This document shows positions 13,148-58,579 of a stretch of 64,000 nucleotides of DNA, piece by piece. Origin of the DNA: Leptolyngbya ohadii IS1. GTDB taxonomy: Bacteria; Cyanobacteriota; Cyanobacteriia; Elainellales; Elainellaceae. Each line of letters begins with the position of its first letter. The stretch's first letter is position 1. A program made the translations under genes and the position numbers. Where the stretch lies: positions 186,001-250,000 of the forward strand of contig NZ_NKFP01000007.1 of the NCBI RefSeq assembly GCF_002215035.1, given 5' to 3'. The notes beneath the pieces are model-generated. The model saw only the letters and a list, made by a program, of their open reading frames with translations. It ran no database searches and was not told where the DNA came from.

Positions 13148-16051
13148 CTATGACTTATCCCCATTAGTCAACTTGTCCAGCAGTTCCTCACAATCGGCTT
13201 TGAGGGGGATACCGAGTTCAGAGGCTAGAGCCAGAGCTTGCTGGCAGAGGGGGAGAGCAGTGGGGGTGTCGTTGAGGTCATGATAGAGTTTGGCGAGGTT
13301 GAGGAGGGCTTTGGCTTCATTAGTGCGATCGCCAATCTGTTGAAAGATTTGCAGTGCTGCTTGGTTATTAGCTAATGACTCTGAGTATTGCTGGAGCTTG
13401 CGTTGGGTTTCACCTAGATTGCCCAGTGTAATGCCTTCTCCTAGCCGAGCGCCAATTTCTCTTTTAATAGCAAGAGATTGTTGATAGGAATCAATGGCTT
13501 GAGGATACTGACCGAGATTGGCGTAAGCGTTGCCCAAATTGCTCAGTGCAATGCCTTCTCCAAAGCGATCACCAATTTTACGTGCAAGCTCTAGAGATTG
13601 TTCATAACAATCGATTGCCTGTTGATATTCATTTAAATCTGAATGGACTAATCCTAAAGTGTTCAGTGCGATGACTTGTTCGTAATTAGCATTTAGTTTC
13701 TGGCTTATTTTTAACTGTTCTTGAATACATTTTTTTGCCTCTAAAAATTGATTTTGCCCCCGATAAACAAGTCCTAGATTTCCTAACGTATGCATTTTGG
13801 GAACGAAATACTGAAACTGCTCCGCTATTATTAGGGATTCTTCATAATATCTTTTCGCGCTTGAAAAGTCCCTTATAGAGTAATAACCGAGACCCATATT
13901 GCTAAGAGCTTTTGACAAAACTTCCATATTTCCAGTTTTTTCTGCAATATTTTTACGTTTCTCTGCATAGTAAATTGCTTGTTGATAATTACCTAAATAG
14001 TTATTAGCAAGACTTAAACCACCTAAGCAATCCATATCTACTTCTAAGGATACTTTTTCAATTAGCTTATCGCAAAGTTTAATTTGTTCATCGAAGTAGC
14101 TCCAAATATTTAGCTGCCAATGTAATATTTCTTCTCCGGGTGAACTTTGAAAGACAAATTTAGCCTTGTCCCAATCCTGAATTTCGCAGAAGTGGTCAAA
14201 AGCTTCGAGATATCCTCGAATAGTTTCGATGTTGGGCGCATCGTAAGGCGGTACATAGGCTGTCAACCAAAGGTCAGCAACTTTTCGTTCTGCCTGCTCC
14301 CACTTCTGGTTATCCGTTTTGAGCAAGCCATAGCTGATAGAACGGATAAGATTATGTTGACGTACCAGACAGGGTTGACCCGGAACATCGACGTACTCCA
14401 CCAGCTTGCGACCCTGAAGACAGTCAAAAGCGGCATAGGGATCATCGCCTTCACTCATTTCAAGCCAGAAGGTTTCCGGCACTGGGCGACGGAACACCGA
14501 ACAGGCACAAAGCAACTGTTTAGCAGTATCAGGCAAGCTTTCAATGGTTTGCTCCACCCGTTGCCGGACGCGAGTTCTAAAGGTGCGAGAACGATCGACC
14601 TTACCCTGGGGAGTTGCGGCTTCAAACTCCTCCCCATACCTATCCCAATAGCTCTGAACATTGCCATTAAAAGGACGTTGCTTGATTTCATCTGCAATGA
14701 CTTGAAGTACAAGGGGATGCCCATCATAGAACTGCCCGATGCGTTTCAGTCGTTCCTGGTCATCCCTCAATCCCAACTTCTGAAATAGGTCTAATTGCTC
14801 CTGCTGACTCAACCCCTGAAGCGTTTGGCAAAACCAGAATTGGTTGAAACGATCGCCCATCCCCTCTAAATCTCCAGGAATATCTTGAGTGGTAAGGATC
14901 AGTTGGCTTGCCATTTGATTTGTGGACAGCACCCTTTGAAACAGTGAGAGCCAGAGGGGATCACAAAACTCGCTCCACCCGTCTTGTTCATTGCCCTTCA
15001 GCAGTCTCTCCATCGAATCAATCTGAAGCCGACAGGGGTGACTCTGTAACCTGCTAACGATGTGGCTGACTAGATTAGTAGGGTCTTGCTGGTCTTCCAG
15101 TGTTAGTTCCTCACCCAGTTCCCTGAGCAAAGCAGCCCCACTGGAAGAGAAATCAGTGCCGATAGAACGATCGTCGAGGCTAAAGCGGACATAGGGCAGT
15201 GTTTCTTCATCCTGAGCTAATTGATCGATCGCCCGTTCCGCGAGCGTGGTTTTGCCCACTCCTGTCATGCCCACAATGGCAATAATCCGACAACCTCGGC
15301 GCAGTTGCTCACAGATTGCCCCAGTCTCCGCTTCCCGTCCTGTAAACGTCTGAGGGTTATAGGTAGAGAATGCGATCGTCGCAGTTGTCGAAACTGGAGG
15401 TCTGTCTGGTCGATGGGTGATCAAGACGGGAATGTGATCCTGATTAATGCCTGTCATCTTAATAGCGACAGTAGCAAGATCAAAGGCGAATTTGATATCT
15501 TTCCCTGCCCCGATCGCATCATAGAAGGCGACGGAGAACTCGATTGCAGCTTTGTCGGCAATTGCCTGATTCATGCCAATGACATAGGGAATGTGTTGGG
15601 CTATAGCCTGAGCCTGTCGTTCTGAATAGCAGGCATTTAAGACCACACACTCGACAGACTCTCGAAAGAGTTCAAACAGTGCTGCCAATGCCTCTGTCGT
15701 AACGAGTTGGGGTTGTCCGGTCTGGTCTTCCAGGATCAGTCCCTCCTCAGCAGGTTCTAGCCGATCGACTGGCACCAGCTTTCGTGTTTCTTCTAATACT
15801 TGTCCTTCCTGCGCTGTTGCTTGCCCCACGCCATGTCCAGAAAAATGAACAATCTGCGGTTGATGATCGAGCATCGCCCTTTGTAAATCTCTAGAGCGGA
15901 CAGCCCACTGTTGTTTGAGATGGAATCGATCGCGGTACTTCGACCTTTGTAAGCCTGCCTCAATTTCACGGATTTCTTCATCGAGGCGAAGTCTTGCCGT
16001 GGAGGTAGGTTGAGCTGCCAGAAATAGAATTGCTTTTGTGCGATCGTTCAT
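13148..16051 (-). CDS. CHAT protease - STAND NTPase - TPR protein
   Basis: From ATG 16051 the protein has 967 aa. Residues ~1-215 form a CHAT (caspase-like) domain with the catalytic dyad His73 (HFSGHG) and Cys141 (VVLNACYS). An NB-ARC/STAND-type NTPase follows with Walker A GMTGVGKTT at 261-269, and the C-terminal third is a run of TPR repeats (NLGNAYANLGQYPQAIDSYQQ type). The frame extends upstream to 16222, but those 57 codons lie in a dispersed repeat (SSHGGSRHG is repeat-encoded), so the later ATG is preferred. This architecture is that of signal-activated proteases: TPRs sense, the NTPase oligomerises, CHAT cleaves a target. Related modules take part in programmed cell death and anti-phage defence. 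No obvious cleavage partner is adjacent; the small protein at 16803 is a weak candidate. Confidence 0.9.
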   Translation of the reverse strand: MNDRTKAILFLAAQPTSTARLRLDEEIREIEAGLQRSKYRDRFHLKQQWAVRSRDLQRAMLDHQPQIVHFSGHGVGQATAQEGQVLEETRKLVPVDRLEPAEEGLILEDQTGQPQLVTTEALAALFELFRESVECVVLNACYSERQAQAIAQHIPYVIGMNQAIADKAAIEFSVAFYDAIGAGKDIKFAFDLATVAIKMTGINQDHIPVLITHRPDRPPVSTTATIAFSTYNPQTFTGREAETGAICEQLRRGCRIIAIVGMTGVGKTTLAERAIDQLAQDEETLPYVRFSLDDRSIGTDFSSSGAALLRELGEELTLEDQQDPTNLVSHIVSRLQSHPCRLQIDSMERLLKGNEQDGWSEFCDPLWLSLFQRVLSTNQMASQLILTTQDIPGDLEGMGDRFNQFWFCQTLQGLSQQEQLDLFQKLGLRDDQERLKRIGQFYDGHPLVLQVIADEIKQRPFNGNVQSYWDRYGEEFEAATPQGKVDRSRTFRTRVRQRVEQTIESLPDTAKQLLCACSVFRRPVPETFWLEMSEGDDPYAAFDCLQGRKLVEYVDVPGQPCLVRQHNLIRSISYGLLKTDNQKWEQAERKVADLWLTAYVPPYDAPNIETIRGYLEAFDHFCEIQDWDKAKFVFQSSPGEEILHWQLNIWSYFDEQIKLCDKLIEKVSLEVDMDCLGGLSLANNYLGNYQQAIYYAEKRKNIAEKTGNMEVLSKALSNMGLGYYSIRDFSSAKRYYEESLIIAEQFQYFVPKMHTLGNLGLVYRGQNQFLEAKKCIQEQLKISQKLNANYEQVIALNTLGLVHSDLNEYQQAIDCYEQSLELARKIGDRFGEGIALSNLGNAYANLGQYPQAIDSYQQSLAIKREIGARLGEGITLGNLGETQRKLQQYSESLANNQAALQIFQQIGDRTNEAKALLNLAKLYHDLNDTPTALPLCQQALALASELGIPLKADCEELLDKLTNGDKS

Positions 16052-16144
16052 TTCGAGCAAAGCGTCATTATTTGCAGACGCTTTAATTGTATTGAATGGA
16101 GGCAGAAGCAATTCAAGTGCGGGTCTAGAGAAGATGAGTCCATG

Positions 16145-16158
16145 ACGGCTACCGCCGT
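16145..16158 (-). repeat. Dispersed-repeat hairpin, copy E (minus strand)
   Basis: Read on the minus strand this is ACGGC-GGTA-GCCGT, a 5-bp stem with a GGTA loop. It is preceded by an ACGGG...ACAG...CCCTTC...CCAG context that matches copy B. The outer pair is A-T instead of G-C, again a compensated change. A CAGCGTAGCCC-like segment of the same family lies at about 16345-16375 on the minus strand. Confidence 0.5.
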
Positions 16159-16424
16159 GGCTGGAGATGAAGGGCTGTGCCCGTCTTGGGCAGGGTTTAA
16201 CCACTGCAATGCTCAAGTTCATCAGTGCCCAAGTTCATCTAATCTTCAAGGCTTCATGCTTCAAAATCCCAATGTCCTTCAATCCTCCAAGTTTCAACAG
16301 TGATTCTGGGGTTTCAGTGGGTGCAGCCGCTACGCTGCTGCTTGCTCGCTACGCTGCGCTATGGGCTACGCTGTTGCTTCGCCCTTCCCAATTAAACAAT
16401 CATCAGTCGATCGTCTAATTCATT

Positions 16425-18044: not shown

Positions 18045-18257
18045 GGGGTGTTGGGTGGGTGTTGGGGGTTTTGCACGCCCCCTAAATCCCCCAATTCTGG
18101 AGGACTTTGAAATCTCTCATCCTAGCGACCTGAAAAGATTGCCTGCTGTTTAATGACTTGATTTCCTGAAGTTAATGAAGGCTTTGCGATGTAAGAGACG
18201 ATCGGTGATGTGGATGCCATATTGGTAATGACTCATCTTCATGGGCTTACAAGATAT

Positions 18258-21212
18258 ATGGTGGATTGGTTAGTCGTCTGGGGAGCTGCACAGGCTGCTG
18301 GATTTGTGTTTAAGCCAATTTTGGAAGATTTGGCGAAAGAATCGGCTAAGGATTACGCCAAAGATTTCTTTAAGGACTGCCTCAAGAAAGTAATCCGCCT
18401 ACCTGAGAAAGATGCTCAGAAAGAGGCTTATGGCAGGGCTTTAAAGGAATTCTTGCAGCTTGTACAGCAAGAGCTTGAGGACGCTGACTACCAGGACGTT
18501 CAGATTAAACAGTTCATTCAGCCGCTGAGAAGATTTGTAGACCAGGAAGAAGTTGCGGCGGCGTTAGGGCAAGCTTTTGAGCCAAGCTGTTCTGGATTAG
18601 ATATTCAGACTTTAGTTAGAGCATGGAAGAAGCTTGATTTGCCTTACCTGCCAGAGGAGTTTAGCTGGGAGCGGGTAAGCAAACGCTATCTCAAGAAGGT
18701 AAGGGCAATTGTTCAAGAATCTGACAAGCTGCGACCGATCTTTGAGACTCAGGCACAGGCAGCAACAGCAGAGGGAGTTCAGGAGCTAGTTGGCGTTCAG
18801 CCAGAGTTTGATTTGGGTCGCTATGCGGAGGGACTACGTGAGGAGTACGGCAATCTAAAACTAGAATCCCTTGATACAACTGGAGCCTACTACAGCCTAA
18901 AACTCTGGAAAGTTTTTATTCCGCAGAGCGTTCGTGAGTGTCAAGAGTTTTTGCCGCAGGTCTATGAGATTCCAAAGGAATATGGACGCAGGCTTCGTGA
19001 GCAGGATCAACTAGATGAGGCGGAAATTGCTGAGGCGGAGTTAGAGCGGTATCGCAGAATGTATGTGGAGCAGCCAACGCGATCGGTTCTAGAAATTGTC
19101 GGTGATCCGATGTCTTCTACTGAGAAGCCTTCTCCTCTAGGCGTTCGATACGACGGCTCGATGCTATATGACGGATCTAGAAGATATGGCAGTACGTTCA
19201 CCCAACGTGCAGTGATTCTGGGTGATCCGGGTTCAGGAAAATCAACACTGCTGCAATGTATAGCTTTGGCTTGGGCAGAGCGATCGTTGAGTGAGTTGCC
19301 GCTATACCCCATCCCGCTGTTAATTGAGCTACGTACCTATGCTCGTGATAAGCAAGAGCGTAAGTGCGAGGATATTCTTTCATTCCTCCATTCTGGCAGT
19401 ATTACCTGTCGTTTAAACCAGCGGCAGCTTCACGACAAACTGAAGGCAGGTCAGGCAGTCGCTTTATTTGATGGCATTGATGAGGTGTTTGAGCCAGCAT
19501 TGCGGCATGAAGTGGTAACGGATATTCACCGCTTTACGAATGAGTATCGTGATGTGCAGGTGATTGTGACTTCCCGTTGGCTGGATTATAAAGCACAGCG
19601 ATTGCGCGATGCTGGGTTTCGTCACTTTATGCTACAAGACCTAGAGAAAGAACAAATTGAGGAATTTATCCAGCGTTGGCATAACGAAACACTTGCAGAA
19701 GGAGCAGATAAGGTAAGGAAGCAAGAGCGACTACAAAAAGCAATCTGGGAGTCGAAAGCGATTCGAGAATTGGCAGGCAATCCGCTGCTGCTAACAATGA
19801 TGGCAATCTTAAATCGTAATCAAGAACTGCCACGCGATCGCCCGCAGCTATATAACCGGGCATCGGAGGTACTACTGCACCAATGGGATGTGGAACGTAC
19901 CCTAGTAGAAGACCATCGCCTTGACCCTAAAACGATCGACTATCGAGATAAACAGGCAATGCTGCGAAAGGTTACCTACTTCATGCAATCTAGCGAAAAA
20001 GGCTTGGCAGGAAATATTATCAGCGAAACTGATTTAAAGAACATTTTGATAGATTATCTGAAGACGATTTATCCAAATCAACCGGAAATAATTGCTCGGC
20101 TGATGATTAACCAGCTGCGAATTCGCAACTCCACTCTCTGTTCCCTGGGAGGAAACTCATATGCCTTCGTTCACCGCACCTTTCTGGAATATTTCTGCGC
20201 TTGGGAATTCGTTGATCAGTTTGAGAAGCAGCGAACTCTGGATTCTGAGCAACTCATTCAGGCGACGTTTGGTGAACATTGGCAAGATGAAACCTGGCAC
20301 GAAGTCTTGCGATTAATTGCTGGAATGATCAATGCTAAGTTTGTCGCAGAAGCAATCGATTTCCTGCTAAAGCAGGAGGTCAATCGGGAGAATTTTTTAG
20401 ATGAGGCAAATCAGCAAAAGAAAGAGGGGCTGAGTAATCTCCTATTGGCGGCAGAATGTTTTTCTGAAGTTAGAAATAAGTCTGCAATTTGTTCTATCAC
20501 AACTCAACTTTTAAATCGATTACAGCGTGAAGTTGAGCAGGGATACTCTTATCAGCTTCATTTAGAAATACCAGTTGCGCTTACCACTCATATTGCTACT
20601 ATTGGACGAGAGAATCCTACAACACTACCTTGGCTAAAGAATTACCTTAAAGAAGCTGATTGGTTTGTAGCAGAGTCGGTTGTTCAGACAATCGCTCAAG
20701 TTTGGAAAGACGACCCTGAAACTTTACCCTGGCTTAAAGCTCTTGCTCAACAGGATAAAGATGACTTTGTGCGTCAAGCAGCAGTGCGAGAGCTAGCAGA
20801 AGGCTGGAAAGACGACCCTGAAACTTTACCAATTCTCAGAACTCGTGCTCAATCTGATAAGAGTAATCTTGTACGTCAAGTAGCAGTGCAAGAGTTAGCA
20901 AAAGGCTGGAAAGATTTAGCTGGTATGTTTGAGTTTTTGCGAGATCGAGCTATACATGATCCATTTAATTACGAAGATTCTTGGGACGATAATCCTCGCC
21001 AATCTGCCCTAAGGAGATTTCTGAAGATAACGTTACCCAGCAAGGGGCTGGATCAAGATGTCCCATTTTGGCAAGTCCGGATGTCGCTGCAATCTGCTTT
21101 CAATGTCCCGCATCGCCACTTTAGTCAGCGAAATTCCGGTCGCATACGGTTTATCGTTCAACTTCACAATCGGATGAATCCCTTTCCAGGTCATACTTTG
21201 CGCCCAAGCTAG
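18258..21212 (+). CDS. NACHT-HEAT STAND protein, 3' end replaced by IS sequence
   Basis: ATG 18258 (MVDWLVVWGAAQAAGFVFKP) fits the usual N-terminus of cyanobacterial NACHT proteins; the frame also extends to GTG 18210. Walker A is GDPGSGKST at about 321-329, and Walker B-like ALFDGIDEV and the sensor VIVTSRW follow. The NACHT winged region ends near FVHRTFLEYFCAWE. The C-terminus has about three ~31-residue HEAT-like units (ETLPWLKALAQQDKD...VRQAAVREL). The gene then runs into an ISAzo13-type element: residues from about ITLPSKG onward are antisense IS sequence. The native 3' end is therefore lost, though most of the repeat domain remains. NACHT proteins of bacteria are anti-phage sensors; the N-terminal effector here is not a known nuclease or protease by eye. 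Confidence 0.85.
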   Translation: MVDWLVVWGAAQAAGFVFKPILEDLAKESAKDYAKDFFKDCLKKVIRLPEKDAQKEAYGRALKEFLQLVQQELEDADYQDVQIKQFIQPLRRFVDQEEVAAALGQAFEPSCSGLDIQTLVRAWKKLDLPYLPEEFSWERVSKRYLKKVRAIVQESDKLRPIFETQAQAATAEGVQELVGVQPEFDLGRYAEGLREEYGNLKLESLDTTGAYYSLKLWKVFIPQSVRECQEFLPQVYEIPKEYGRRLREQDQLDEAEIAEAELERYRRMYVEQPTRSVLEIVGDPMSSTEKPSPLGVRYDGSMLYDGSRRYGSTFTQRAVILGDPGSGKSTLLQCIALAWAERSLSELPLYPIPLLIELRTYARDKQERKCEDILSFLHSGSITCRLNQRQLHDKLKAGQAVALFDGIDEVFEPALRHEVVTDIHRFTNEYRDVQVIVTSRWLDYKAQRLRDAGFRHFMLQDLEKEQIEEFIQRWHNETLAEGADKVRKQERLQKAIWESKAIRELAGNPLLLTMMAILNRNQELPRDRPQLYNRASEVLLHQWDVERTLVEDHRLDPKTIDYRDKQAMLRKVTYFMQSSEKGLAGNIISETDLKNILIDYLKTIYPNQPEIIARLMINQLRIRNSTLCSLGGNSYAFVHRTFLEYFCAWEFVDQFEKQRTLDSEQLIQATFGEHWQDETWHEVLRLIAGMINAKFVAEAIDFLLKQEVNRENFLDEANQQKKEGLSNLLLAAECFSEVRNKSAICSITTQLLNRLQREVEQGYSYQLHLEIPVALTTHIATIGRENPTTLPWLKNYLKEADWFVAESVVQTIAQVWKDDPETLPWLKALAQQDKDDFVRQAAVRELAEGWKDDPETLPILRTRAQSDKSNLVRQVAVQELAKGWKDLAGMFEFLRDRAIHDPFNYEDSWDDNPRQSALRRFLKITLPSKGLDQDVPFWQVRMSLQSAFNVPHRHFSQRNSGRIRFIVQLHNRMNPFPGHTLRPS

Positions 21213-49130: not shown

Positions 49131-50177
49131 TCAGATCTGGGTACTCCAATCACACATGATTGCTGTAGTCGGTAACCAACCCTCCTTGCTGTGGAGGGTA
49201 TAGTGTATTCCGTTAATCGCTGTTGCCGCAATCACTAATCCCTGCGCTCTAGCTCGATCGAACCATTGCCTAAAGCCGATAGGAACGATCGCCTCAGAAG
49301 ATTCAGCAACATTCAATTCCCACCCCTGGACGATCGCCTCATACAGATACCCCACCGGGTTTTTGATCTGCCGCTTTTGCTGCTGCTGGCACAGATAGGC
49401 AATTGCAGGCTTGACGCGATCGGGGAACCGTTCGATTGCCTCCTTGAGAGTCACAGGTAAAGGAGCGTTCGGAGGATGCTCGATCGCCTCAGCCACCTCT
49501 TCTGTAAGTTCCACAAGTTCTGGGAATTCTGCGGGTTGAATTTCAATAACTTTCCCAGAACTGGCTGGGGAAAGAGTCGCCTCTATTGCGCCGTCCACTT
49601 CTACACCAGAACCCTGCTCACAGCCTGCCGCTTCCCCAGCTTCAGCAGATCCAGCCTCTTCCTCATGCATTTGAGAAACAACAACAAAAGCCGTTTGTTG
49701 TTCTGAAAGAGAATTATTTGAAGGAATCTCTGTATCTGTCGTGCGATCATTCAACACCTCGATCGGATCACTGTTCGCACATCGAGATGCGAACACATCA
49801 CACACGGCTCCAGCAAATGCCGACAACCGATCGTAATCAATTCGATAAAACATAACGCGCTTATACGAAGTAATCCAATGTTGAGCCGTTTGGATGAGTC
49901 CAAGCTTTTTCAGATTAGCGATCGCCTTCCTCAACCCATACTGGGTCATCCAGGGAAACTGCTCCTGCCAGGACTTCAGGGAGTTGTAGATCCATTTGCT
50001 TCCATCCACCATCCAACCAGACACGGCTGAATTGGTCGTCCAATAATGCAATTGCTGCAAGAAAGCGCTCTCATCAAACCCCGTTCCAGATTTACCCAGC
50101 GTTTGCTTCAGCAATCCTGCCAGTTGAGGGGGAATAGGGATGGAGTTTGCTTCCAACGTTTTATGCGTCATGCTCAT
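49131..50177 (-). CDS. Replication-initiator-like winged-helix protein
   Basis: A 348-residue protein. Residues ~35-125 look like the N-terminal winged-helix region of plasmid or phage replication proteins (FLQQLHYWTTNSAVSGWMVDGSKWIYNSLKSWQEQFPW, then GLRKAIANLKKLGLIQTAQ). The middle (~165-250) is acidic and low in complexity, and the C-terminus (~255-345) is a separate small domain (IKNPVGYLYEAIVQGWEL). It overlaps the downstream end of the next minus-strand gene by 4 bp (50174-50177). The family assignment is inferred; it could also be a regulator. Its place beside an RHH repressor gene fits a plasmid or integrated-element backbone. Confidence 0.65.
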   Translation of the reverse strand: MSMTHKTLEANSIPIPPQLAGLLKQTLGKSGTGFDESAFLQQLHYWTTNSAVSGWMVDGSKWIYNSLKSWQEQFPWMTQYGLRKAIANLKKLGLIQTAQHWITSYKRVMFYRIDYDRLSAFAGAVCDVFASRCANSDPIEVLNDRTTDTEIPSNNSLSEQQTAFVVVSQMHEEEAGSAEAGEAAGCEQGSGVEVDGAIEATLSPASSGKVIEIQPAEFPELVELTEEVAEAIEHPPNAPLPVTLKEAIERFPDRVKPAIAYLCQQQQKRQIKNPVGYLYEAIVQGWELNVAESSEAIVPIGFRQWFDRARAQGLVIAATAINGIHYTLHSKEGWLPTTAIMCDWSTQI

Positions 50178-50791
50178 CCCCTCCCTGCACGAGAAGGTTG
50201 ATTCAACCGCAGCAGCCGTCTTCCTGTACTCCGCACAAGCTGCCTGAGCCGAACTATCCGTGCATCAATTAGCGATTGCTGCTCCTGGAGGGCTTTCACC
50301 TGCTGTCCTCGCTCGACCGCTGCCCGGACTCCGCCCACCTGTTGATGGGAGAGGTGCTTGGTTTTGACCTTGGGCTGACCGGACTTTTTGTACTCGCCCG
50401 TGAGCCAGCGCAATTGATGGTAGGTGTATTGCTTGCCATTTTTAGTTTTCGTATAGGGTTCGACCCACTGATCAAAGTAAACGTCGCCCTCCTGCTCGAT
50501 CGCTCGAATGTCCTGAGTGAAGCGATCGCGTTCAGCCTGGAGCCTGTGCAGGACAGCGAGGTAGCGGGAGATCCACTGGAGTTCTGGGAATTGGTCGAGA
50601 TCGAGAACAATCGAATTTCCCAGAACTTCTTCCGATTCAGAGTGCGGTGGCGGGAAAGCTGGGCGGGGGGAGGCAGTGAATTTCTGCATAGGAAAGCTGA
50701 CCCACGACAAGGGTGGGTTTCCAAAGGGTGGACAAACGACAAGAGAGCGATCGCCTACCTCCAACTGGAAAGGGCGATCGCCTGCAATCAA
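50174..50791 (-). CDS. Hypothetical protein with basic C-terminus
   Basis: A 205-residue protein with an N-terminal Pro-rich part and a basic C-terminal region (~130-205: KNGKQYTYHQLRWLTGEYKK, then KTKHLSHQQVGGVRAAVERG, and coiled coil ALQEQQSLIDARIVRLRQL). The Tyr-rich sheet followed by K-T-K is reminiscent of DUF6788-type element proteins, but this is a guess. It overlaps the Rep-like gene by 4 bp, so the two are coupled. It may bind DNA. Confidence 0.6.
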   Translation of the reverse strand: MIAGDRPFQLEVGDRSLVVCPPFGNPPLSWVSFPMQKFTASPRPAFPPPHSESEEVLGNSIVLDLDQFPELQWISRYLAVLHRLQAERDRFTQDIRAIEQEGDVYFDQWVEPYTKTKNGKQYTYHQLRWLTGEYKKSGQPKVKTKHLSHQQVGGVRAAVERGQQVKALQEQQSLIDARIVRLRQLVRSTGRRLLRLNQPSRAGRG

Positions 50792-52855: not shown

Positions 52856-53941
52856 ATGACCCCCATCAACCTGACTCCCTACATCGACCCCGACTACGGC
52901 ATTTTGCTCCCCACCGCCCTCGCGATGCCTGCCCTCGGACTCACCGACCACGGGCTGCGGAAATTCCGCCCGCTCCTGGTCGAAGCCGTGGACTTTATCC
53001 GCCAGCCCGGACCCGGCTCGATTGAACGCATCTTTTACAGCGCTACGGGCTTACTGAAGCTTGCCAACGCCGCTGCGACTCCCCAGGCAGAAGCCCTCAA
53101 AACTGCTCTGCAACCTTATCTGCCGCCGCCGCAAGGCTCCTCACCGTCGCTGCCCCCACCGCGAGATCCTGCCGCTGGGATCGTCCCTCTCCCGCCCCAC
53201 GCCGTGCAGCTCTACACCCCATCGCCCAGCGACCTCGACCCTTATGCCCCCGCCCAGCGCCGCGTTCCGGCATCTACCTCCATGACCACGAGATCCACTG
53301 TAAGTGCGGATCACACCGTCATTCCTCCATCTATCACTCCGGCGTATGCTTTTGCCGGAAGCGATAATCCCGCCCTTGAGATCGCTCACCAGCTTGCCCC
53401 GCACCTGGCTCCTGCTGTAGCGGCTCAGGTCGCTCAACAAGTCCTGCCCCAGATGAACGCTGCCCTGGCTCGATTGAACGATCGCCCCAAGGCACTGACC
53501 GAAGCAGAACTCCTGTTTGAGCAGCAGAAAATCTCGCTCCAGCAGCTTGAAGCGATCCAGCGAATGACCCTCGCCGCGCAGGAAGCAGGGGTCAACCAAG
53601 CCACCACGCTGATGAACGCTATTCCCCAACCCCAGGCGTTTTTAATTCAAGGCAATGGCGGGTTTGAGGATCTGATTGCCCTGATGCGATCGGAGGGGAT
53701 GCAGATGCTAATTGGCTTAGTCGCTTTTGCCTTTGCCCTGGTTGCTTTGTTGGGGTTTCTCTTTAGCCGATCGTCTGACCCAGTACCTTTGCCTGACCCC
53801 ACAACGGCTGCCCCCCTTGCCCCTATAGCCCCGCAGCCTGTAGCCCCGGTTGCGCCCGTTCCCACCGCTCCCGTGGCTCCGGCTGCTCCGGCAAACCCCG
53901 TTCCTCGTTACGACACCCCCTCGACGACTGCTCCCCAGTAG
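52856..53941 (+). CDS. Membrane protein with Pro/Ala-rich regions
   Basis: A 361-residue protein from ATG 52856 with AGGAG upstream. It has an N-terminal folded region (~1-85), a Pro-rich linker (~88-150), a helical region (~170-255), a single membrane segment (~278-300: MQMLIGLVAFAFALVALLGFLFS) and a Pro/Ala/Val-rich C-terminal tail. I do not recognise the family. It is the third gene of the plus-strand operon and may anchor or scaffold the ATPase complex at the membrane. Confidence 0.65.
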   Translation: MTPINLTPYIDPDYGILLPTALAMPALGLTDHGLRKFRPLLVEAVDFIRQPGPGSIERIFYSATGLLKLANAAATPQAEALKTALQPYLPPPQGSSPSLPPPRDPAAGIVPLPPHAVQLYTPSPSDLDPYAPAQRRVPASTSMTTRSTVSADHTVIPPSITPAYAFAGSDNPALEIAHQLAPHLAPAVAAQVAQQVLPQMNAALARLNDRPKALTEAELLFEQQKISLQQLEAIQRMTLAAQEAGVNQATTLMNAIPQPQAFLIQGNGGFEDLIALMRSEGMQMLIGLVAFAFALVALLGFLFSRSSDPVPLPDPTTAAPLAPIAPQPVAPVAPVPTAPVAPAAPANPVPRYDTPSTTAPQ

Positions 53942-53994
53942 TCCAAGGAGGAACTGGAACAGATTAACCCTTCAAAAAAGGAGACCTAATAACC

Positions 53995-54480
53995 ATGCCA
54001 GCCGGTATTTCCGAGTCCGATTTTAAGATTCAGTCTGAACGTATTCTGCGTCAAATCCGTGCCACCAAACTGGAGGGGCTGCAAGCCGACCTCGACCGCG
54101 AAAAGCTCATCACCAAGCGCAAGCAAAAATCCGTTGAGGTTGCGGCGGAGCAACTGCGCCAGGAAGAGATCAAGCTCTCGATCGAGCAGGTCCGCACCGA
54201 CATCTTGCGGAACAACCTCAGGAAAACGGAAGTAGAGCGATCGATTAGCGAGGTTGAAATTACAGGCGCACAAGACCGCTTGAGCTTTGAAACTCAGGCG
54301 GTGGACTTAAACCGCGATCTTTTCCGGCAACGCCTGGAGGCACTGGATCTGACGCTGGGTGAAGCGACGTTCCACAACGACGATCGCCGCAGTGAGTTCC
54401 GCGAGAAGGAGATTCGCGTTGGCTTGCCGCGTTCCTTCACATTCCCCGGTATGGGTGCGGCGAACGCCAACCTCAACTAA
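53995..54480 (+). CDS. Small helical protein, likely coiled coil
   Basis: A 161-residue, almost wholly helical protein (ILRQIRATKLEGLQADLDREKL, then KQKSVEVAAEQLRQEEIKLS). ATG 53995 follows AAGGAGACC, a strong ribosome site. Charged heptads suggest a coiled coil from ~15 to 115. No membrane segment is seen. I do not recognise the family. It lies between two membrane-protein genes upstream of the ATPase. Confidence 0.65.
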   Translation: MPAGISESDFKIQSERILRQIRATKLEGLQADLDREKLITKRKQKSVEVAAEQLRQEEIKLSIEQVRTDILRNNLRKTEVERSISEVEITGAQDRLSFETQAVDLNRDLFRQRLEALDLTLGEATFHNDDRRSEFREKEIRVGLPRSFTFPGMGAANANLN

Positions 54481-54537
54481 ACCACTTTTGTCGTTTTTGC
54501 CGCTCCGACCCTCGTGGAGCGGCGTTATTCAAGAATT

Positions 54538-54912
54538 ATGGAACAGCGCATCGCAGTGGGTTTATCGGCTCTCCTTATCTCTGGTGTCATGGCTCAACTG
54601 CTGAAACTCTTGTGGCTGATTCCACTGGTTCCGCAGGGTGTCACGCTGATTGCGATCGTGATTGCCCTTGTGTTTGGACTGGCAGCCTGGTGCCAGTGGC
54701 TCAAACTACTCCGTCGTCGCCAGATTAAAGCCGCAAAACGCCTTCAAAAAGACGCGGAAAGCTTTTCCTACTTCATCCAGTCAGAGCTTGTGGAAAAAGA
54801 GCTTGATCTGACGCCTGATGCCCAGCATGACCTGCAAACCGTCCTCCTCAGAGTCGATCAAGCCCTGCCCCTGGTGATGGGAGCGATCGGGATTCTGCTC
54901 GGTCTGTTCTAG
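54538..54912 (+). CDS. Small two-segment membrane protein
   Basis: From ATG 54538 (MEQRIAVGLSALLISG) a 124-residue protein with two hydrophobic segments (~8-26 and 33-52) followed by a basic helix (KLLRRRQIKAAKRLQ). A weaker hydrophobic C-terminus follows (LPLVMGAIGILLGLF). GTG 54514 is in frame. The gene lies 41 bp upstream of the ATPase start. No family recognised; a small membrane subunit would suit the context. Confidence 0.6.
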   Translation: MEQRIAVGLSALLISGVMAQLLKLLWLIPLVPQGVTLIAIVIALVFGLAAWCQWLKLLRRRQIKAAKRLQKDAESFSYFIQSELVEKELDLTPDAQHDLQTVLLRVDQALPLVMGAIGILLGLF

Positions 54913-54952
54913 CTCCCCTGTTTTTGCCTTCTCACTGCCTCCGGTGCAGCCC

Positions 54953-57370
54953 ATGACTGTCTATCCTCGCATCATTCCCACAGATAACCCCTTTCGTCCT
55001 CTCGCGGCTCGTCCCACCCGCGAGGTGAAGCCGCGACTGTGGCTTCTGGCCTTGGCAACCTGCACGACCCTCACCTTTGGCATTCGCCCCCAAGAGCCTC
55101 TGCTCGCCACGTTGCTGTGGGCAATTCGCCTGGGTGGTGCCGTCTGCGCGATCGCGGCTCTTTACCGTGACCCAGAAGTGGAAATCTATGACCCGATCGC
55201 CGAAGCCACAGTTTTGCATCAATTTCAAATGACCCGCTTGCAGGAATCTCACCAGCTTGCCCTTCAACAACAGCAGTGGGAAATCCAGCAGTATTACGAC
55301 GCTCAGGCGACTCAGCAGATCCAATCAACGATCGATCACTACGCCAGACTGTTGCAGCAAAAGGAATTTGAACTCTTACAGATCAGGCAATCGCTTGCCA
55401 ATCAGCAGGTCGAGTTTGAAACGGAAAAGCAACGCCTGACGCAATCCTGGCAAAGTCAGTGGGAACGCCTGGAAGTACAAACGGCTGAACTCGAAGCCAC
55501 GAAAAATCAGCTCAAAGCCGAACGTGATGCCATTCATACCTGGGCAGAAGAAAAGGCAGTTGAACTGGATGCAGCGGAGCGAGACGCCCGATCGCAGCTC
55601 AGTGCCCGTGCTGCCAAGCTAGAGCAAGACCTCGACAATCAGCGCAAGCTCTTGATTGAAGAATTTGAAAAACAGCACCATGCCCTGGTTGCGGCAGCTC
55701 AAAAGGAAATCGATCGCTACCGGCAACTGATTGCTGATCAAGAAGCCACGATCGAGTCGCAGCGGCTCTATCTCTACAACCTTCAGCAGCCGGAGCTGAT
55801 CAATGGCTCCACGACCTTTGAACTCTTGGCAGACCGGGTGATTCAATTCCTCTACCACCACGGCGTGATTGTGCGCGACCCGCGCATTGTGCCCTTTAGT
55901 AAGAAGTTCCAACTGAGCTTCAACATTCTGCCGATCGCCCCTGGCAAGAACGATAAGAACAAATACGCTGAGAATCTGATTGACGCTTATAAGCGCATCC
56001 ACGATCGCTTGCTCGAAGGCGTGATGGCAGAGGTGCCCAACTGTAAAACCAAGCCAGGGCTGGAGATGAGTAACCGTCGCATTGTGCTGACGATCGATAT
56101 TTCTGGCATTGATTGGGAAGCCGAGAATGCGGTTGACCCGATCGTCGAGGCAGACCCCGATTGGCTGCTGACGCTCGTTCGCATCGCCAACCACTTCCGC
56201 ATTACGGGCAACACCGACACCGGAAAATCGACGCTAGTGGATAACCTCGTCGGTGCGATGCAGCAGGTGTGGGCAGAACTGCGTCTCAGCGTGGCTGACC
56301 CCAAGTATCCCTTTACCGAGTGGTCCACGTTCACCCCCAACTACAAGGGCGTGGAAGAGTCATTCAAAGGTGTGAGTTCTCTAGAGCAGATTGTCGATTC
56401 TCGCTTCCGGCTGGCGCGAAAAGCAAAAGAAGCCGGGAAACCTCTACCAGAGTTTGCGCCTGAACTGTTTGTCTTAGATGAAGCGGAGATCCTGATGGAT
56501 GAAGCCCGGACGATCGACGAGGCAAACCCACCGCAGCGCGGCAAAATCTCGCTGCAAAAGCACCTGACGCGGATGCTCAGGAAAGGGCTGAAACTGGGAC
56601 GAGGCTTGACCAAGCAAAAAGGAAAGGGATTGAAGGTGGCATATATCGCCCAATCTCCACTTTGCTCCCGCCTGGGCATGAACCGCGATGACTTCGATCA
56701 ATCCGTCAATATCTTCATCGGGGAGAACATTCCCCGTGCGCTGGAAGAGGAGCTAAAGACGAAGATCAGCAACGCGGATAAAGCGTACTGGAAGGAGCAA
56801 TATCACCTGCGCGTGGAGCGAGGCGATCAATACTTCTGCCTGGTGAAAGCTCCCGGCATGAAGCCCTTTATCGCCACGATGCCACCGCCGGGACACTATG
56901 CTTTGGGGGCGATCGAAACGGTTGCGCTGGCGGTGCCTGCTTCCAGCCAGGAGGAAGAGGTGCTGGAGATTGAAGCTTATGAGGAAGACGAAGAAGACAC
57001 GGACGAGGACATCCCTGTGGATGACGACGGTGAGCCGATCGAGGAGGAACTGTCGGAACAGCGCGATCGTTTAGACGAGATCTTTAACCTGCCCGACTTA
57101 ACCCAACTGCCAGAACGAGGGTTGGAGCTACTGGGATACGTTTACGGGAAAGGCGATCGCCACGCGGACGAGGAGGGCTGGTTTGTCGTCGCCAAGCTCA
57201 GGGACAACTGGGCAAAGGATCGAGGCATGGATACGCTGGCTTTGAAAACGCTCTTGCATCAGCTCAACGATCTGGGCGTGGGTGAGTTTCGTGTCCTCCC
57301 CGACGAGAACCCCGAAGCCTTCTGGCGACCCCGAATCGATCCCCGATTTCTACCCCGAAACGAAGCGTAA
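54953..57370 (+). CDS. Membrane-anchored FtsK/TraB-like ATPase
   Basis: The protein (805 aa from ATG 54953; GTG 54944 is also in frame) has two N-terminal hydrophobic segments (~25-65), then a long coiled coil (~90-280). The ATPase core follows with Walker A GNTDTGKST (~419-427) and Walker B PELFVLDEAE (~503-512), plus an acidic low-complexity linker (~665-700). The last ~95 residues (FNLPDLTQLPERGLELLGYVYG, then ALKTLLHQLNDLGVGEFRVL) look like a winged helix. This order (membrane segments, linker, RecA-like core, winged helix) is that of FtsK and of the TraB proteins of actinomycete conjugative plasmids. The assignment to that group is inferred; HerA or VirD4 relatives are alternatives. The 3' codons are already part of the ACCCCGA repeat array at 57309-57558. 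Confidence 0.75.
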   Translation: MTVYPRIIPTDNPFRPLAARPTREVKPRLWLLALATCTTLTFGIRPQEPLLATLLWAIRLGGAVCAIAALYRDPEVEIYDPIAEATVLHQFQMTRLQESHQLALQQQQWEIQQYYDAQATQQIQSTIDHYARLLQQKEFELLQIRQSLANQQVEFETEKQRLTQSWQSQWERLEVQTAELEATKNQLKAERDAIHTWAEEKAVELDAAERDARSQLSARAAKLEQDLDNQRKLLIEEFEKQHHALVAAAQKEIDRYRQLIADQEATIESQRLYLYNLQQPELINGSTTFELLADRVIQFLYHHGVIVRDPRIVPFSKKFQLSFNILPIAPGKNDKNKYAENLIDAYKRIHDRLLEGVMAEVPNCKTKPGLEMSNRRIVLTIDISGIDWEAENAVDPIVEADPDWLLTLVRIANHFRITGNTDTGKSTLVDNLVGAMQQVWAELRLSVADPKYPFTEWSTFTPNYKGVEESFKGVSSLEQIVDSRFRLARKAKEAGKPLPEFAPELFVLDEAEILMDEARTIDEANPPQRGKISLQKHLTRMLRKGLKLGRGLTKQKGKGLKVAYIAQSPLCSRLGMNRDDFDQSVNIFIGENIPRALEEELKTKISNADKAYWKEQYHLRVERGDQYFCLVKAPGMKPFIATMPPPGHYALGAIETVALAVPASSQEEEVLEIEAYEEDEEDTDEDIPVDDDGEPIEEELSEQRDRLDEIFNLPDLTQLPERGLELLGYVYGKGDRHADEEGWFVVAKLRDNWAKDRGMDTLALKTLLHQLNDLGVGEFRVLPDENPEAFWRPRIDPRFLPRNEA

Positions 57371-57558
57371 ATCGTCGGGGTAGGGGCTGAATTTGTCGGG
57401 GTAGAGCCATTACCCCGACCATTACCCCGAAAAACCCCGATTGCTGAAACGTTTGCTCTGCTTCATTTCCCGCTGTTGGCTGACTGACCCCGAAAACCCC
57501 GAAAGTACCCCGAAAAACCCAAATTTGCAGTTTGCATCTCACAACCCCGAAACCCCGA
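57309..57558 (+). repeat. Array of 13 ACCCCGA heptamers beside the ATPase gene
   Basis: ACCCCGA occurs at 57309, 57328, 57352, 57412, 57424, 57434, 57487, 57496, 57507, 57544 and 57552. Two inverted copies lie at 57375 and 57396, and one TCCCCGA at 57340. By chance about 0.03 would be expected in 250 bp. The first three lie in the last codons of the ATPase (ENPEAFWRPR, FLPRNEA), the rest are intergenic. An 8-bp recognition repeat cluster (clt/TRS) is known next to TraB genes of Streptomyces plasmids, and iterons near plasmid origins are another precedent. Confidence 0.85.
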
Positions 57559-57587
57559 TTTTTAGACTCCAATTCAGGAGCAGCTTG

Positions 57588-58175
57588 ATGAAACTCAGTA
57601 GAATTCTTCTTTATTCCGGTGTAGCGATCGTTGGCGTAACTTCAGTGTTGTCCTGGCAGCGATCTAATGCGACCGCGACGGCGCAGAGACGAACTACTGT
57701 AATGGCGACAGATCAACGTGGAGCTGCGATGCCTCTAGCAGTTCCCAATGCGATTGCAGCAGCGCCAACTCCGCCTCAGGTCACTTCCCCTGCTCCCACA
57801 ACTCCGGTTCCCCCTGCTTCACCGTCTCCTGCACCCCAGCCAGAATCGCCTTACTTCAAACCATCTCCTTCTCCCACGCTCGGTAATCCTGGTAGCGTTC
57901 TCACAATCAGCAATTGCAACGGACAAGCTGGAAACGCCAATCTGCGCTCAGAGCCAAGACTTGCACATGAAACAATTTTGGGCGTGGTTCCACAGGGGCA
58001 GGCGGTGAAGCTGACGGGCAGAGCAGCAATCAGAGATGGGGAGTTCTGGTACGAGGCGATCGCTCTCTCGCCACTTGCTGCCAGTAACAATACCCTCGCT
58101 GCCAATACTGGAGTAGGTCAACAGGGAATGACTGGATGGATCTTTGGCTGTTTTGTTAACGGTGAGGGACAGTGA
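57588..58175 (+). CDS. Exported SH3-domain protein
   Basis: From ATG 57588 (MKLSRILLYSGVAIVGVTS), with AGGAGC upstream, a 195-residue protein with a signal or anchor segment (~3-22). A Pro/Thr-rich linker (~50-105) and a bacterial SH3 domain (~110-190: SNCNGQAGNANLRSEPRL, GVVPQGQAVKLTGR, GMTGWIFGCFVNG) follow. SH3b domains bind peptidoglycan or peptides. The frame extends upstream to 57441 through the heptamer array, but that part has no ribosome site. It may be a cell-wall-binding component of the element. Confidence 0.78.
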   Translation: MKLSRILLYSGVAIVGVTSVLSWQRSNATATAQRRTTVMATDQRGAAMPLAVPNAIAAAPTPPQVTSPAPTTPVPPASPSPAPQPESPYFKPSPSPTLGNPGSVLTISNCNGQAGNANLRSEPRLAHETILGVVPQGQAVKLTGRAAIRDGEFWYEAIALSPLAASNNTLAANTGVGQQGMTGWIFGCFVNGEGQ

Positions 58176-58579
58176 CGGGAAAGCGTTCCGTATCTCCTCA
58201 GTACGTTGCTTACATCCAGAGCAGCGGCTGGAAGGTTTCGTTAAGGCGAAAGATTGCCCTCAACCTGCTGTTTGGGCGAGATCCGATTATCCCCCTACTA
58301 AAAGCGCACGATGTGGAACACCTGAGTTACAGGCGCATTGATTTTGAAAGCTGCGTCGGCTATGAGATTCCATTTCTCGATTTGATGCCGCTCAATCGCT
58401 TTATGCACAGGCAAGTTGTCACGCCAGTTAAAGACGTGCTGCGGAAACGGTTGGGGCGGAGGCTGGGCAATGCGATCGTTGCCTACTCTTTGAGGTTTTG
58501 CCTCTTGTTCTGGTATGGAGTACTCCTGGTACTCGGAGGCATCTTTATTCTCTTGATTTTGTATCTCCTTGGTTTTTAA
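58172..58579 (+). CDS. Small membrane protein
   Basis: A 135-residue protein starting at GTG 58172, which overlaps the stop of the SH3 gene by 4 bp (GTGA), so the two are coupled. The N-terminal ~100 residues are soluble and basic; a C-terminal membrane segment follows (~112-133, LLFWYGVLLVLGGIFILLILYLLGF). I do not recognise it. The C-terminal anchor suggests attachment to the inner membrane near the ATPase. Confidence 0.6.
   Translation: MTGKRSVSPQYVAYIQSSGWKVSLRRKIALNLLFGRDPIIPLLKAHDVEHLSYRRIDFESCVGYEIPFLDLMPLNRFMHRQVVTPVKDVLRKRLGRRLGNAIVAYSLRFCLLFWYGVLLVLGGIFILLILYLLGF

Follow-up and report, generated by a model that had tools for sequence, protein, structure and literature searches.

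The array of ACCCCGA heptamers at the 3' end of a membrane ATPase gene of Leptolyngbya ohadii is probably a cis-acting docking site of the very ATPase whose gene it overlaps, as judged from sequence comparison. We favour this reading because an orthologue with the same C-terminal tail keeps the array, because a paralogue has exchanged both tail and repeat, and because C-terminal helix-turn-helix (HTH) domains and short repeats are associated across loci. The window, meaning the whole 64-kb stretch analysed, covers bases 186001-250000 of contig C7 (292 kb), in a genome of 7.9 Mb. Its features relevant here, in window coordinates, are as follows.

49131..50177, minus strand: gene resembling replication initiators (DnaD/O-like), 7 kb away from the array
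52856..54912, plus strand: upstream operon genes, for proteins of 361 aa (one TM), 161 aa and 132 aa (TMs)
54944..57370, plus strand: membrane-anchored coiled-coil ATPase of 808 aa, with a putative FtsK/HerA-like motor, Walker A near residue 421
55800..57585, plus strand: variable cassette (motor end, winged helix and array), replacing a different cassette in the C2 paralogue
57056..57367, plus strand: predicted C-terminal winged-helix domain, residues 705-808, about 95 residues (from the model, Foldseek and recurrence of the domain on unrelated proteins)
57309..57558, plus strand: ACCCCGA heptamer array, 13 exact copies, 11 direct and 2 inverted
57309, 57328, 57352, 57412, 57424, 57434, 57487, 57496, 57507, 57544, 57552: starts of the direct copies
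57375, 57396: starts of the inverted copies
57370..57423, plus strand: inverted repeat within the array, arms 57370-57388 and 57405-57423, 84% complementary
57588..58579, plus strand: downstream operon genes, for an SH3 protein of 195 aa (N-terminal hydrophobic segment) and a 135-aa TM protein

The array and the gene it overlaps

The 13 copies, counted already in the preliminary description, compare with about 0.02 expected by chance per 250 bp, as estimated from shuffles of the window. The window holds 26 copies in all, half of them in these 250 bp, as opposed to 5.4 +/- 2.0 when shuffled, and nowhere else in it does any 7-mer exceed six copies per 300 bp, the runner-up in density being the HIP1-type word CGATCGC. 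The scan of the remaining genome that had been recommended turned up no second cluster: in a paired-copy search of all 7.9 Mb, pairs within 30 bp were limited to the array and to five scattered pairs, the latter not exceeding the pattern of a reversed control. The copies are scattered, not tandem, 8-60 bp apart, and follow the order of three forward in the ATPase gene, two reverse and eight forward, the last grouped as 3, 3, and 2. The first three lie in the last codons of the ATPase, ahead of its stop at 57370, as had been described, and the remaining copies occupy the gap up to the ATG of the next gene at 57588. The inverted pair sits directly 3' of the stop codon, every other copy being direct, and falls in the left arm and the loop of the inverted repeat, from which a terminator-like T run is absent. 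A scan of the array for a promoter-like site or a terminator found none.

The membrane segment, the RecA-like core and the likely winged-helix C-terminus that had been read from the ATPase sequence have all found support. The N-terminal anchor is a hydrophobic segment (residues 53-71, Kyte-Doolittle 1.94), a long coiled coil is present, and the RecA-like P-loop core is visible as Walker A GNTDTGKST, ADPK, and Walker B LFVLDEAE. For the C-terminal domain, a winged helix is predicted by a structure model (pLDDT 82), and its nearest PDB folds in Foldseek are the wHTH domains of CodY, MarR, ArsR, and BlaI, with modest E values of 0.02-0.1. The motor appears FtsK-like at the level of remote profile similarity: a Pfam search of the ATPase gave a weak P-loop match and none to FtsK_SpoIIIE, and a profile of the motors of five relatives matches a true FtsK (L057, whose Pfam FtsK_SpoIIIE match has an E of 1.6e-35) with 96% probability and an E of 2e-9, compared with 85% for the window-type motor alone and 1.7% for an AAA_25 control. 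The top PDB-sequence match of the motor profile is EccC, an ESX FtsK-type ATPase (E 6e-4); the structure model of the motor was unusable (pLDDT 44).

The same kinds of upstream genes precede the ATPase at the C2, G001, G030, G073, and G038 loci, and the ATPase operons of the set hold genes for SH3, M23-peptidase or other envelope proteins. A separate relaxase and a T4SS-type coupling protein (T4CP) are encoded elsewhere on C7. ParA-type ATPases are encoded on both C7 and C5, with the best match on C7 at C7:40443, about 200 kb from the array. As to the remaining contents of the window, HIP1-type CGATCGC words are dense at 50501-50750, beside the Rep-like gene, and two large STAND-type genes, CHAT/NB-ARC/TPR (13148-16222) and NNH2-NACHT-HEAT (18210-21212), are present, the second resembling NACHT immune proteins.

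Tails and repeats across loci

One example of exchange is presented by a paralogous operon on contig C2 of the same genome (L025). The flanks of the cassette are about 90% identical overall between C7 and C2, ranging over 72-100% at 52.6-55.8 kb and 74-100% at 57.6-59.5 kb, while identity drops to 28-69% within 55.8-57.58 kb and homology resumes just past the last heptamer. As the dissimilar block ends right after the array, the motor end, the putative DNA-reading tail and the array have been swapped as one block. The C2 ATPase possesses a different motor end and a different C-terminal HTH ("type B"), and in place of an ACCCCGA array, which is lacking, it has CCGCACC repeats, with 15 near copies of CCGGTGC/CCGCACC in the coding sequence just ahead of the type-B HTH. 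Its counterpart in G001, a contig of Cyanobacteria bacterium FACHB-502, has 13 such near copies. G001 also carries an orthologue of the window ATPase with the same tail, and here the array is kept (L010), with 10 of the 11 ACCCCGA of the examined stretch within it. The orthologue check that had been proposed thus came out in favour of the association, paralogues with other tails having other repeats. In the non-coding part of the array, heptamer bases are 95.7% identical between C7 and G001, as opposed to 74.6% for the spacers (p=9e-5).

The same winged helix is also found on other proteins, again with a matching array, if more weakly on C5. One example is a two-TM protein devoid of an ATPase domain in G068 (Myxacorys), where two copies of the gene are followed, directly 3' of their stops, by ACGCCGA (8 copies) and ACACCGA (4 copies), respectively; in these arrays base 3 is the main difference from ACCCCGA, and inverted copies come first, then direct ones. 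Another example is a 501-aa membrane ATPase on C5 of the window genome, whose stop is followed by GACACRC/ACACRCG words, weak in exact counts. C5 (65.9 kb) is taken to be circular, with a replicon length of about 54 kb, since its ends repeat 11.8 kb at 98.7% identity (L024, L053). The one clear exception among the carriers of this wHTH is G030 (Elainella), in which the array has decayed. A search of 386 genomes of the phylum with an HMM of the wHTH matched only G068 besides the genome of origin, so this type is rare, and it was other tail types that showed generality. PLSDB searches found relatives neither of the window's own ATPase nor of the array DNA, and viral contigs contained none of the wHTH or the motor; a weak type-B match there was dismissed as what looks like a chance match of 12 residues.

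The survey accordingly covered 30 membrane-ATPase and related loci, 16 HTH-bearing and 14 HTH-less, a repeat being scored when at least four exact copies of a 7-mer occurred in 250 bp (background 2.2%). It draws on a PLSDB family of membrane ATPases akin to that of C5, found on 42 plasmids, mostly of Nostocales, from which 18 loci were read, 4 with a C-terminal HTH and 14 ending at the motor. Exact repeats are present at 13 of the 16 HTH-bearing loci versus none of the 14 HTH-less ones (Fisher p=5e-6), and a shuffle-corrected test with one mismatch allowed gives p=4e-6 for the association, both values being optimistic because of near-duplicate loci on both sides and doubtful words at L080 and L083. 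The repeat word covaries with the type of C-terminal domain across loci. Similar tails on two different plasmids, Calothrix p3 (L079) and pCAL6303.03 (L080), are both accompanied, 3' of the stop, by GYGACA words of which the inverted ones precede the others, the p3 array lying between convergent genes; the ATCAATC of L080 belongs to a low-complexity linker coding for Asn/Ser, and the sites are more likely the GYGACA words. The Scytonema locus L083 is a weak case, in that GGCAGAA after its stop may be common low-complexity filler, and in-gene CACCGC words suit its type-B tail better. A third kind of tail, on Calothrix NIES-22 plasmid8, is accompanied by TTTAGAC, and the G288 tail by CTGAACC.

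Further observations concern genes met along the way. On Calothrix brevissima NIES-22 plasmid8 (AP018215.1), the ATPase relative at L044:13475-16057 carries the annotation "chromosome partition protein Smc" (BAY67223.1), for which its coiled coil is probably the reason, and the gene at L044:17267-19006 has a telomere-resolvase domain of the ResT/TelK type (E 2.7e-25). The record is given as circular and has ATATAAC repeats near both its ends; this plasmid is possibly a linear hairpin plasmid. In G068, a RepA-like AAA_25 gene (L023:6701-8581, G068:C103) contains 11 ACTGATC in codons 451-525, ahead of its C-terminal domain, the same design of in-gene repeat and C-terminal domain in a replication protein.

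Known systems and rival explanations

In the FtsK/SpoIIIE-KOPS/SRS systems, a C-terminal winged helix reads short oriented DNA words and so loads and orients a membrane-bound motor. The system considered here would be similar in this respect, and differs in having one dense array beside the gene instead of many skewed sites across the chromosome; a KOPS-like genome-wide distribution of ACCCCGA is ruled out, paired copies outside the array being at control level. Plasmids of the RepA_N type have iterons inside the rep gene, that is, recognition repeats in or beside the gene of their reader, near a variable C-terminal domain, an arrangement like the one proposed here, except that the candidate reader is an ATPase of the membrane and no initiator of replication.

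The closest precedent, closely matched in anatomy, is the clt locus of pWTY27, which spans the last 16 bp of traA and 159 bp beyond, contains 7-bp TGACACC repeats and inverted repeats, and is bound by TraA (PMC3583192). TraB of pSVH1 reads 8-bp repeats via a C-terminal winged helix, and clt of pJV1 contains nine 9-bp repeats (PMC3583192; PMC4170104). Like the Streptomyces TraB/TraA proteins (pSVH1, pJV1, pWTY27, pIJ101), the protein is a membrane-anchored ATPase with a predicted C-terminal winged helix, and, as in clt, short direct and inverted repeats are positioned at and just beyond the 3' end of its gene. Unlike in Streptomyces, the host is a Gram-negative cyanobacterium, the ATPase has a long coiled coil and no Pfam FtsK_SpoIIIE match, the operon holds several membrane or envelope genes, a relaxase and a T4CP are present elsewhere on the contig, and tail and repeat are swapped as a cassette and occur on non-ATPase membrane proteins as well. 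The system is thus filed with the TraB/clt kind by likeness, not by proven membership. Of the clt-like locus proposed earlier, the anatomy, the retention of the array with the tail and the covariation have stood, and its purpose may be conjugation.

Among other readings, iterons of a plasmid origin, to which a Rep protein would bind, were previously named the main alternative, and short repeats near a plasmid gene, with a Rep-like gene 7 kb off, would fit, as would in-gene iterons, which the RepA-like gene of G068 suggests may exist in this group. This alternative has lost its place, however, since C2 has this Rep-like gene in the same surroundings (DNA 87% identical) and yet no ACCCCGA array, and the repeats follow the C-terminal domain of the ATPase, not the Rep gene; we consider it very unlikely. 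The position of the array between the ATPase gene and the next (57371-57587) and the likeness of the fold to repressor wHTHs would also suit an operator through which the winged helix represses the SH3 gene or adjusts the operon. Such a role is improbable, given that in type-B relatives the repeats lie midway along the reading frame of the ATPase, that the Calothrix p3 array, between convergent genes, serves no downstream promoter, that the array has no promoter-like site, and that 13 copies are many. Finally, cyanobacterial genomes are rich in short repeats, as in the HIP1 clusters at 50.5-50.75 kb, yet neutral repeats of this common sort are barely credible for an array that is unique in its genome, with units scattered rather than tandem, heptamers conserved above their spacers, and a strong association with a protein domain.

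A more serious competitor, if still somewhat unlikely, is a parS-like centromere in membrane-tethered segregation, in which the protein would keep the plasmid in place or move it when the cell divides, with no cell-to-cell transfer. It agrees with the plasmid-borne position, with each co-resident replicon having its own repeat type, and with the same wHTH and array on the ATPase-less two-TM protein of G068, which alone could only anchor. It agrees less with the ParA-type ATPases already encoded on C7 and C5, or with multi-gene operons whose SH3, M23-peptidase, and other envelope proteins exceed the needs of a tether. Segregation or tethering nonetheless fits the data nearly as well as transfer does.

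A proposed mechanism and its meaning

Returning to the docking site, we propose that the C-terminal winged helix would read ACCCCGA and that the heptamers, grouped and mostly pointing one way, would serve to load a ring motor of FtsK/HerA-like type, anchored in the membrane, onto the plasmid that encodes it and to orient it there. This motor would then pull or hold double-stranded plasmid at the membrane. Its purpose would be either cell-to-cell transfer, as for TraB at clt, where double-stranded plasmid DNA requires TraB and clt alone to be transferred, or moving the plasmid across or away from the septum. Reading head and site array would form an exchangeable cassette, so that plasmids sharing a cell would have one kind of machine, each with an address of its own. 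What we infer here is the binding, the loading, the translocation and the biological task. Transfer may be that task, in view of the likeness to clt and of the operons' envelope genes, SH3 and M23; segregation or tethering we hold to be a less probable one. The relaxase and T4CP elsewhere on C7 offer another transfer route, which leaves conjugation by this ATPase as a proposal.

In conclusion, we tentatively propose that cyanobacterial plasmids encode a relaxase-independent, TraB-like or segregation-type motor for double-stranded DNA, for which an interchangeable cassette of C-terminal HTH and cognate heptamers, in or next to the motor's gene, would serve as a private plasmid address. The literature searched, a set that most subscription journals lie outside, describes no such arrays or clt-like system in cyanobacteria, and the joint recurrence of the tail and its matching word, with differing words, across many plasmids of cyanobacteria points to a plug-in system, so far undescribed, that would move plasmids or anchor them. 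Little is known of how most of these plasmids pass from cell to cell, or stay separate in filaments that contain many of them. A code of tails and DNA words that can be recognised would predict which protein handles which plasmid and provide binding pairs testable straight from sequence, including natural sets of orthogonal wHTH/heptamer pairs, and it would extend the TraB/clt logic of actinomycetes to another phylum, perhaps by convergence.
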